This document shows, one piece after another, positions 32,951 through 36,585 of a stretch of DNA of 64,000 bases. The notes beneath the pieces are model-generated. The model did no database searches. It worked only from the letters and a program-made list of their open reading frames with translations, and had not been told where the DNA came from. Position numbers and translations under genes: made by a program. Position 1 is the stretch's first letter; every line of letters begins with the position of its first letter. The stretch comes from Prochlorococcus sp. AG-436-C14. GTDB lineage: Bacteria > Cyanobacteriota > Cyanobacteriia > PCC-6307 > Cyanobiaceae. The stretch lies in assembly GCA_003209755.1 (NCBI GenBank), contig QCPD01000001.1:124001-188000 (forward strand). Reading direction: 5' to 3'.

Positions 32951-34231
32951 ATGAAAAAAATTAGCCAAGTTTTAAACTGGCTTTCAAGCTTAAAAATTGC
33001 GATATTACTGTTATTATTAATAGCTATTTCATGTGCAGCTGGGACCTTAATTCCCCAACAAGAACCAGATCAATTTTATTATGATAATTTCAATCAAAAT
33101 CCTTTTCTTGGAATAATTAATGGAAATATATTAATACTTTTTGAATTCAATCATGTCTATACAAGTTTTTGGTTTTTATTCCTACTGAGTTGGCTTGGTT
33201 TAGCTCTTGCAGTTTGTAGTTTAAGAAGACAATTACCTATACTAAAATCAGCATTAATGTGGATAGATTATAAATCACCTCGTCAAATAGCAAAACTTTC
33301 TATTGCTCAAACAATAGTGACTAATAATTACGCAAAAAGCCTAGAAAAATTAACAATTAATTTAAAGAAAAAAGGTTGGAACGTGAGAGAAACAGATGGA
33401 AGGGTAGCTGCTCGACAAGGAGTAATAGGTAGATTAGGACCTATATTAATTCATCTAGGTATGATCCTATTAATGATTGGGGCAACATACGGATCATTAA
33501 ATGGTAAAAGCATAGAGAAATTTTTAGCTCCTGGCAGATCAATAGATTTATTAAACAATAATGAAGAGAAAGGATTAACTATTGAATTGCAAAAGTTTCA
33601 AATTGAAAGAGACCCCCAAGGAAGAGCTGAACAGTATAAGTCGACAGTAAATGTTATTGAGCCAAATGGAAATAATCAATCTAAACAAATTAGTGTTAAT
33701 TATCCCTTAAGGTATAAAGGGTTAACATTATATCAAGCCGACTGGTCATTGGCAGCAATGACTATTCAAATTGAAAATAGTCCAAAATTACAAATTCCAA
33801 TAAAATCTATTCCTGAGCTTGGTGAACAAGTATGGGGAACAGTTATACCTACAAAAAAAGATGGTAGCGACCCAATTTTATTAACCGTAGAGAGTGAACT
33901 TGGACCAGTAAGGATTTATGATATTGATGGTACATTACTTACAACCTTAAGTACAAATCAGAAGATAAAAGTCAAAGGCAGTTTAATAAAGATAATAAGT
34001 ATAATCCCAAGTAGTGGGTTACTTTTAAAGTATGACCCTGGAGTACCTCTTGTATATACCAGTTTTGCAATAATACTTATTGGAGGTTCACTTAGTATTA
34101 TTTCTACTAAAAAAATCTGGGTATTATATTCAAAGGAAAAATCTATGATTTATATAGGTGGATTAAGCAACAGAAATCTATCTGGCCTTTCAAAAGAAAT
34201 GCCTAAATTTGTTAGTTTCCTAGAGAATTAG
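32951..34231 (+). CDS. ccs1: Cytochrome c biogenesis protein Ccs1/CcsB (ResB-like)
   Basis: LSSLKIAILLLLLIAISCAAGTLIPQ; LGPILIHLGMILLMIGATYG; LRYKGLTLYQADW; 5 nt after ccdA. Confidence 0.93.
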   Translation: MKKISQVLNWLSSLKIAILLLLLIAISCAAGTLIPQQEPDQFYYDNFNQNPFLGIINGNILILFEFNHVYTSFWFLFLLSWLGLALAVCSLRRQLPILKSALMWIDYKSPRQIAKLSIAQTIVTNNYAKSLEKLTINLKKKGWNVRETDGRVAARQGVIGRLGPILIHLGMILLMIGATYGSLNGKSIEKFLAPGRSIDLLNNNEEKGLTIELQKFQIERDPQGRAEQYKSTVNVIEPNGNNQSKQISVNYPLRYKGLTLYQADWSLAAMTIQIENSPKLQIPIKSIPELGEQVWGTVIPTKKDGSDPILLTVESELGPVRIYDIDGTLLTTLSTNQKIKVKGSLIKIISIIPSSGLLLKYDPGVPLVYTSFAIILIGGSLSIISTKKIWVLYSKEKSMIYIGGLSNRNLSGLSKEMPKFVSFLEN

Positions 34232-34642
34232 CTCTAGATTATTTCTTTTACCATGACAGACTCTAATGACTGTATGAACATTACCTCTAGGATTAAAATC
34301 AGCCTCTAATTGTATCCACCTAGGGGCACAAACTTCAACAAAATCATCAATTATTTTATTCGTAACTTCTTCATGAGATATTTTCTTTTCACGAAAGCTG
34401 TTTAAGTAAAGTTTAATTGCCTTTAATTCTAAAACCTTAGTCTTTGGTTGATATTTAATTCTCAAAGTTGCAAAATCAGGATAGCCCGAGAAAGGACATT
34501 TACATGTAAATTCAGGGAAATCTATTGAAATTTCATAATCTCTATCAATATTTGGATTTGGGAAACAAATTAAGCTCCCAGCTTCTATTTCCCTCTCCCC
34601 ATACATAATTTCCTGTTTGATGTCTTTTTCTCGTCTAATCAC
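34220..34642 (-). CDS. queF: NADPH-dependent 7-cyano-7-deazaguanine reductase
   Basis: EFTCKCPFSGYPDFATLRIKYQPKTKVLELKAIKLYLNSFR with catalytic Cys; 12-nt tail-to-tail overlap with ccs1. Confidence 0.94.
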   Translation of the reverse strand: MIRREKDIKQEIMYGEREIEAGSLICFPNPNIDRDYEISIDFPEFTCKCPFSGYPDFATLRIKYQPKTKVLELKAIKLYLNSFREKKISHEEVTNKIIDDFVEVCAPRWIQLEADFNPRGNVHTVIRVCHGKRNNLELIL

Positions 34643-34752
34643 ATTTTAATAGCATTTAAAACTCACACTACATAAAAGCTTGATTAAAAATTCAAACTTT
34701 AAATAAATTCGTCTAATCAAAAAGTGGCGAAATGATGCCAAAAAGTTGATTT

Positions 34753-34766
34753 GTATCATTGAGTAC
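34753..34766 (+). promoter_or_regulatory. NtcA-type binding site
   Basis: GTA-TCATTGAG-TAC, extended dyad TTTGTA-N8-TACAAA (34750-34769); followed by -10-like TAATAG at 34791-34796, placing the site near -41. Confidence 0.7.
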
Positions 34767-34815
34767 AAAACTAATCATCGCTATCCCCCCTAATAGAGAG
34801 AACACAAGGTTTTGT

Positions 34816-35043
34816 ATGGACATCAGCCTTTCTGAAAAACGACATGGAACTCAAATAGAACCAAAGAGTGTTCATGGAATCCTTTGGCTTCAAACTCATT
34901 TTGAATCCAACCATTGGGAATCAATATGTAATGGTCTAGCAATAATTCCTGCCAAGGATGCAGAAATGCTAGGTGAAGATGCAAGAAAGGCTGGTCTAAA
35001 TATAAATTTCATCAATTCTCTTAGTAAAATAGACAATTTCTGA
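34816..35043 (+). CDS. Hypothetical 75-aa protein upstream of glnB (ORF track starts it at TTG 34759)
   Basis: ATG at 34816 is preceded by AAGG (34806-34809); the called TTG start lies inside the NtcA-type site. Confidence 0.65.
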   Translation: MDISLSEKRHGTQIEPKSVHGILWLQTHFESNHWESICNGLAIIPAKDAEMLGEDARKAGLNINFINSLSKIDNF

Positions 35044-35075
35044 TAAAACTATTTAATATTCTTGGAGTTTCTTAA

Positions 35076-35420
<345 letters not shown>

Positions 35421-35446
35421 AGGCAAAATTTAAACGCATAAAACAT

Positions 35447-36295
35447 TTAAAATTTTTCGATTTCAATTTTTCCTTCAACTTCTTCACTCATCCAAAGAAG
35501 ATATTCTTGATTACCAGCAGGACCCTTTAAAGGCGATTTGATTAATCCTTTTGTATACCATCCATACCTTTTAGATTCGTTTACTACGCCCTCTATAGCC
35601 TCAAAATGCAATGAATGATCACGAACTACTCCCCCTTTCCCTACTTTATCTTTGCCAACCTCAAATTGAGGTTTCACTAATACAAGCAACTCAGATCGGT
35701 TAGGTTGAAGAAGAGATTTAATACTAGGCAAAACAATTTTAAGAGATATAAAAGATAGGTCTGCAACTGCGAAGTCTGGTATTGGGCCTCCATCATTAAA
35801 TAATTTTTCAGGAGTTAAATGCCTAATATTGGTTCGTTCCCAAAGAACCACTCTTGGATCATTTCTGATTCTCCATGCAGTCTGGCCATAACCAACATCA
35901 ACTCCATAAACCTTTGCGGCCCCTAACTGCAAAAGACAATCTGTAAAACCACCAGTTGATATCCCAGCATCTAAACAAACCCTATTCTTTATATTTATGG
36001 GAAATTGATTAAACGCTTCAGCTAACTTTTCACCACCTCGAGAAACATATCTCAAAGGCTGCGTAACTTCTATCTCAAGATCTTTTAAAACTTCTTGGCC
36101 TGGCTTATCCAAGATTTGACCATTGATCGTTTTAACTTTGCCAGCCCTAATAAGCTTCTGGGCCTCTTGACGAGATTTAACTAGTCCTTTAGTCAGCAAG
36201 TGAACATCTAATCGCGATTTTTTAGTCATTTGTTTACAAAAACAAACAGGAAACGGAACAAAAACCGCAGAACTCGTACTTATCCTCTTTTTCAA
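35447..36295 (-). CDS. tlyA: TlyA-family rRNA (cytidine-2'-O)-methyltransferase
   Basis: S4-like N-terminus RLDVHLLTKGLVKSRQEAQKLIRAGKV and LDAGISTGGFTDCLLQLGAAKVYGVDVGYGQTAW. Confidence 0.92.
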   Translation of the reverse strand: MKKRISTSSAVFVPFPVCFCKQMTKKSRLDVHLLTKGLVKSRQEAQKLIRAGKVKTINGQILDKPGQEVLKDLEIEVTQPLRYVSRGGEKLAEAFNQFPINIKNRVCLDAGISTGGFTDCLLQLGAAKVYGVDVGYGQTAWRIRNDPRVVLWERTNIRHLTPEKLFNDGGPIPDFAVADLSFISLKIVLPSIKSLLQPNRSELLVLVKPQFEVGKDKVGKGGVVRDHSLHFEAIEGVVNESKRYGWYTKGLIKSPLKGPAGNQEYLLWMSEEVEGKIEIEKF

Positions 36296-36324
36296 TAGAG
36301 AATCTAGTCAACTAACCAAAGGTT

Positions 36325-36585
36325 TTGTCTAAAAAGCTCAGGCATCCAACCAATGAAAATGAGCTATCTAGCCATGGTCATTTTCATCTAACCTCAAAAA
36401 AACAAACTGGAGAAGTCCTTGAACTTCTGCCTCCAGGCAGTTTTGCAATATTTGCAAATCAACCAAATGATTTGCCCCCCTTTCAAGTAATTGATTGCAA
36501 AGGAGGAAGATGCAGAGTAAGACAGCAGGCGTGGGGAAGATATGTTCATTGGGAAGTTGAACACAATAGACTCAAGTCAGCTTGA
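36325..36585 (+). CDS. Hypothetical cyanobacterial small protein
   Basis: ORF track; protein-like C-terminal half (FQVIDCKGGRCRVRQQAWGRYVHWEVEHNRL); short intergenic gaps. Confidence 0.65.
   Translation: MSKKLRHPTNENELSSHGHFHLTSKKQTGEVLELLPPGSFAIFANQPNDLPPFQVIDCKGGRCRVRQQAWGRYVHWEVEHNRLKSA

Follow-up and report, generated by a model that had tools for sequence, protein, structure and literature searches.

Gene organization at the glnB locus

The window analyzed here, a 64-kb stretch of DNA from Prochlorococcus sp. AG-436-C14, contains a small open reading frame (ORF) followed on the same strand by glnB, with a candidate promoter upstream of the pair. The features of the locus are listed below, with positions counted from the first nucleotide of the window.

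34220-34642, minus strand: queF, the divergent upstream neighbor, outside the operon (QueF-II equivalog above cut-off)
34750-34769, plus strand: NtcA box TTTGTA-N8-TACAAA, from sequence and conservation, with the core GTAN8TAC at 34753-34766 and its center at 34759.5
34789-34794, plus strand: CCTAAT, the -10 element proposed here, at canonical spacing (N22) from the box and overlapping TAATAG at 34791-34796 (N24)
34795-34796, plus strand: conserved R-G of the discriminator (-6/-5)
34801, plus strand: predicted transcription start, an A that places the box at -41.5, inferred from purine conservation
34806-34809, plus strand: AAGG, a possible Shine-Dalgarno sequence, from sequence
34816-35043, plus strand: small ORF of 75 amino acids, a picocyanobacteria-specific family (ATG start, codon bias, homology)
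35044-35081, plus strand: 38-nt gap between the small ORF and glnB, with a length of 36-42 nt in almost every Prochlorococcus relative
35082-35420, plus strand: glnB, encoding the PII signal-transduction protein and placed second in the proposed operon

The assignment of glnB to the PII family is given by its match to the Pfam P-II profile (PF00543, E=1.7e-32). The initial annotation, which was made from the sequence alone, made no mention of glnB as the next gene. A search of the gap at 35044-35081 for a terminator-like site found none, and the small ORF and glnB are very likely co-transcribed.

A conserved box at a fixed distance from a downstream hexamer

The symmetric, extended NtcA box that had been claimed at this locus is present exactly at 34750-34769, where TTTGTA-TCATTGAG-TACAAA (in full, TTTGTATCATTGAGTACAAA) is the sole exact match within the window. 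The GTAN8TAC palindrome of class-II NtcA sites is exact at 34753-34766 and is extended here to TTTGTA/TACAAA. As the initial annotation had cautioned, GTA-N8-TAC alone is not rare, and in the window the bare motif occurs at chance level, 6 times for an expectation of 7.1. Its further argument, that the symmetry combined with the -10 spacing is unlikely by chance, agrees with expectations per window of ~0.014 for the exact 20-mer and ~0.006 for GTAN8TAC-N24-TAATAG. The called TTG start codon (34759-34761) does lie inside the box.

The predicted NtcA-type promoter layout is conserved across picocyanobacteria. The box, exactly 24 nt and then TAATAG, TAATGG or (once) TAATAA are found in 33 of 34 related Prochlorococcus upstream regions, the box being conserved in these 33 as GTA-N9-AC, and at the level of the family a GT-N10-AC box followed after 24 nt by [TCG]AATRG occurs at 46 of 56 Cyanobiaceae loci compared with 1 of 11,200 dinucleotide shuffles. 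GT-N10-AC is likewise found in 60/60 of the family promoters that were aligned, though the search pattern itself required GT-N10-AC, and since all the sequences compared here are related the counts are not independent. The 3' half-site is something other than TAC in 9 of the 33 Prochlorococcus relatives and in many family members. In genera whose glnB has no small ORF, the same box-N24-hexamer unit stands directly 5' of glnB (L137-L147), which suggests that the promoter serves PII control rather than the N-terminus of one protein. A scan of 14 whole genomes for box-N24-TAATRG returned 0-6 matches each, roughly the level of a reversed-pattern control, the glnB/small-ORF promoter excepted; thus the unit is not a general signature of the NtcA regulon.

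The GTA-N9-AC-N24-TAATAG layout was also observed directly 5' of Glutamine-II riboswitches, once in the source genome (G000, C18:12287-12330, minus strand) and once in G025 (C1:473473-473516, minus strand). One HL-type relative (L086) has TATATA in place of the hexamer and keeps the N24 spacing. The pyrimidine/C run GCTATCCCCCC that precedes the hexamer at window positions 34780-34790 is unusually conserved in Prochlorococcus, without clear reason.

The -10 element and the predicted transcription start

The initial annotation had taken TAATAG at 34791-34796 as the -10-like element and had derived from it a start site around 34801 with the box centered at -41.5. The hexamer is present and the figures are those that we favor, but the figures correspond to CCTAAT at 34789-34794 and not to TAATAG, which is shifted 2 nt downstream relative to the best register. 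With TAATAG occupying -12 to -7, where the -10 hexamer usually lies, transcription would start at 34803 and the box would fall at -43.5. We propose as the best -10 register CCTAAT, whose N22 distance from the box is also that at the glnA promoters of relatives. The T, A, A and T of this element are conserved in 52, 56, 60 and 60 of the 60 aligned family promoters, respectively (T at position 39 of the alignment, A at position 40), counts that have to be read with the knowledge that these promoters were picked by a pattern that already fixes much of the hexamer. Immediately downstream, position 43 is a purine in 60/60 and position 44 is a G in 59/60. The only other conserved downstream position is 49, the equivalent of 34801, which is unconstrained by the search pattern and is a purine in 51 of the 60 (A in 34, G in 17) and in 32 of 33 Prochlorococcus promoters. 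With position 49 as +1, the box falls exactly at -41.5, CCTAAT becomes the -10 element and the R-G stands at -6/-5.

Neither register matches the TAN3T that canonical sites have 22-24 nt after the box, for CCTAAT (N22) keeps the T6 without the TA and TAATAG (N24) keeps the TA without the T6. The R-G at 34795-34796 is presumably a contact for sigma region 1.2, such that a G-rich discriminator would compensate for the poor -10 element.

NtcA as the candidate regulator

The source genome encodes NtcA (TIGR03697, 365.9 bits against a cut-off of 244.95), and weaker matches to the NtcA profile, of the Crp family, are also present in the genomes examined. Prochlorococcus NtcA binds GTAN8/9TAC specifically by EMSA (PMC5767323). 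Together with the conserved box, spacing and hexamer, these data support the claim of a class-II NtcA-type promoter, and 34750-34815 in all likelihood constitutes a class-II NtcA-activated promoter of the small ORF-glnB bicistron, with ATG 34816 as the start codon. Within this prediction, binding of NtcA to the box at 34750-34769 is the part that we hold most firmly; activation from -41.5 is a little less sure but still clearly favored, and a transcription start at 34801 is probable.

A different Crp-family factor would have to be considered if the box, whose consensus GTARCAACRGNNAC with N24-TAATRG is unlike a glnA-type site, were read as belonging to something other than NtcA. The glnA promoters of relatives, within the same family, do have the canonical GTAN8TAC-N22-TAN3T, the 3' half-site here is often not TAC, the hexamer is distinctive and other, weaker Crp-family profile matches exist. 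The GTA...AC core and the -41.5 geometry are nevertheless the signature of NtcA, and glnB is reported as induced by nitrogen starvation in picocyanobacteria, which leaves this alternative unlikely. In Synechococcus WH7803, glnB rises ~2-fold on nitrogen starvation and a putative NtcA promoter has been stated for it (PMC9430850), glnB is strongly induced by nitrogen starvation in MED4 and not in MIT9313 (reported in PMC5767323), and in SS120 the PII protein goes slightly down under azaserine (PMC5451487). The MIT9313 and SS120 results tell against the NtcA promoter model, as do the relaxed 3' half-sites and the departure of the -10 element from TAN3T. As glnB/PII responses differ among these four strains, strain differences are likely.

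Under the NtcA model, a rise in 2-oxoglutarate during nitrogen shortage would cause NtcA to bind TTTGTA-N8-TACAAA centered at -41.5. The bound NtcA would then recruit RNA polymerase to the weak -10 element CCTAAT with its conserved R-G discriminator, and transcription from A34801 would yield an mRNA with a 15-nt leader encoding the 75-amino acid protein (from ATG 34816) and glnB (PII).

The small ORF starts at ATG 34816

The small protein could begin at the called TTG or at ATG 34816, which has AAGG 6 nt upstream and was the start suggested initially. The orthologues favor the ATG. Homology begins at ATG 34816 in the orthologues with a complete 5' end, and all 32 of the distinct Prochlorococcus orthologues compared have an ATG start. 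An AGG-type motif is found in only 14/32 Prochlorococcus orthologues, so AAGG lends weak support to this start. The longer N-terminus (residues 1-19), for which an alignment of orthologues had been proposed as a check, is not conserved: of 33 regions, only 12 keep 19 or more open codons in the extension from the TTG and 6 have the TTG itself; in others the frame is interrupted by stops, or 1-5 nt have been gained or lost between the promoter and the ATG. Conservation of these residues was the observation that would have told against the ATG, which thus stands.

The opposing argument is that translation from TTG 34759 produces a protein whose N-terminal peptide, MSTKLIIAIPPNRENTRF, accounts for the conservation. 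In the window this frame contains no stop, and IPPN-like residues recur where it is open in relatives. In the 21 same-register regions, however, 10 carry an in-frame stop within the extension, and divergence by codon position is even across the extension (0.24/0.23/0.26), unlike the coding pattern of the ORF (0.16/0.11/0.28). Lengths of -64, -65 and -68 in relatives shift the frame of the extension, and the promoter unit precedes glnB even where the small ORF is absent. The stops, frameshifts and non-coding divergence lead us to reject an N-terminal coding extension, which is extremely improbable. TTG 34759 also lies 42 nt upstream of the predicted start site, a position from which it would be unable to start the small protein. 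The true start is ATG 34816 on the evidence of sequence comparison, a revision that also gives proteomic and expression studies a corrected annotation.

A small-protein family of the Cyanobiaceae, also present on probable phage contigs

The small protein is characterized by the motif MDI..HGILWLQTHFE..W..L..DA..AGL, with the invariant core G..WLQ..F....W and D....G. Of 300 Cyanobiaceae genomes, 205 encode a member of the family, and these cover 44 of 59 genera. Among 243 Cyanobacteriia genomes searched it was present in 27, all Cyanobiaceae, with no relatives among the other genomes of that set. Curated Pfam and NCBIfam profiles gave no match, and a PDB sequence search returned nothing significant (E>=0.2). 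The AlphaFold model is a confident, compact alpha/beta structure (pLDDT 87.9), for which a fold search gave no significant PDB (E>=0.39) or viral match. An accessory role in PII function or nitrogen stress is a tentative suggestion, guessed from the operon partner. Some copies of the small ORF lie away from glnB and still have this box and hexamer upstream (L127, L128, L129, L133 and L134) or the box with the hexamer TAATGA (L135); those of L127 and L134 are preceded by a Glutamine-II riboswitch.

Five IMG/VR contigs carry homologues of the small protein, as follows.

L238, 3001-3195: beside the phage genes PurM and Hsp20, right after a manA RNA
L239, 2959-3186: between psbA and talC
L240, 3001-3207: right after a manA RNA
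L241, 3001-3207: right after a manA RNA
L242, 2965-3150: small-protein homologue

These contigs look like uncultured cyanophages. A search of deposited phage records gave no convincing match to the small protein, the hits in Pseudomonas phages being weak (29%).

Glutamine riboswitches, DUF4278-type genes and a hairpin in relatives

In most loci of the Synechococcus/Cyanobium type, the co-directional upstream gene codes for a protein with YRG repeats, assigned to the DUF4278 type by motif and literature. A glutamine riboswitch precedes the DUF4278-type gene in 19 of 20 loci scanned, with scores that range from above the gathering score (L107, L108, L097 and L122, plus L090, L117, L127 and L134) down to E=0.32. 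The 50 nt before the ATG of the small ORF in DUF4278 loci form a terminator-like hairpin, often with a U run, that holds the AATRG hexamer in its loop. The fold z of these 50 nt has a median of -3.6 in 28 loci with DUF4278 versus +0.23 in 28 without (Mann-Whitney p=2.7e-6), although GC content differs between the groups and the shuffles control for it only partly. Examples with the hexamer in the loop include L088, L093, L094, L101, L083, L084 and L117, where the DUF4278-type gene ends just upstream.

This raises the question of whether the conserved element is mainly a terminator or attenuator in a leader and not an NtcA promoter. Where DUF4278 lies upstream, the strong fold, the frequent U run and the placement of the hexamer in the loop are what such an element would predict. 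The window locus is the simpler form, without DUF4278 and without the hairpin (z ~ -0.5), and it shares the lack of a fold with most DUF4278-less loci, yet the box, spacing and hexamer persist in them. An Rfam search of window positions 33000-36500 found no RNA family, including RF01739 and RF01704. We therefore consider the terminator or attenuator explanation very improbable and retain the NtcA promoter. The same search led us to reject a glutamine-riboswitch leader, or any other Rfam RNA, for this locus; the type-2 glutamine riboswitch (RF01704) has 8 copies elsewhere in the source genome.

A broader and more speculative model, which we put forward with considerable doubt, is that the small ORF product functions together with PII in the nitrogen stress of picocyanobacteria and that some cyanophages carry the gene as well. 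In the Synechococcus/Cyanobium type it might form a cassette with the riboswitch and DUF4278 gene, the two halves being expressed in opposite nitrogen states. The NtcA promoter would be nested in the upstream terminator, so that read-through stops just before the ATG, while the NtcA-driven start would lie past the 5' arm of the hairpin.

Comparison with known systems

The NtcA-type promoter was correctly read from the sequence and the start revision is correct; the conserved PII-linked small gene and its possible cassette in relatives are the more interesting result. With class-II NtcA promoters such as that of glnA, the locus shares a GTAN8TAC-type box, the -41.5 geometry (predicted here), a target in nitrogen metabolism and an encoded NtcA. 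It differs in having CCTAAT with R-G (or TAATRG at N24) in place of TAN3T at N22, and many relatives of this promoter have a relaxed 3' half-site and are nested in a terminator-like hairpin. Glutamine riboswitch-DUF4278 genes (type 1 RF01739, type 2 RF01704) are co-oriented neighbors in many relatives and are absent at the window locus.

PipX, PirA, NirP1 and the glutamine synthetase (GS) inactivating factors IF7/IF17 resemble the small ORF product in being small proteins of nitrogen control (predicted here, from a proposed operon with PII), and the small ORF differs in the lack of a Pfam/NCBIfam or significant fold match. Prochlorococcus is reported to lack PirA, NirP1 and the GS inactivating factors, and most marine Synechococcus likewise to lack NirP1 (PMC8092223, PMC10907346, PMC6316151). 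That the small ORF is a PirA, NirP1 or IF homologue was rejected on this reported absence and the lack of a family match. The tuning of nitrogen assimilation in these cells has been called unclear (PMC6316151), and a conserved small gene that has its promoter in common with PII throughout the family, with copies on cyanophage contigs, offers a concrete candidate for study. PirA and NirP1 are NtcA-repressed, whereas the small ORF described here is expected to be NtcA-activated.
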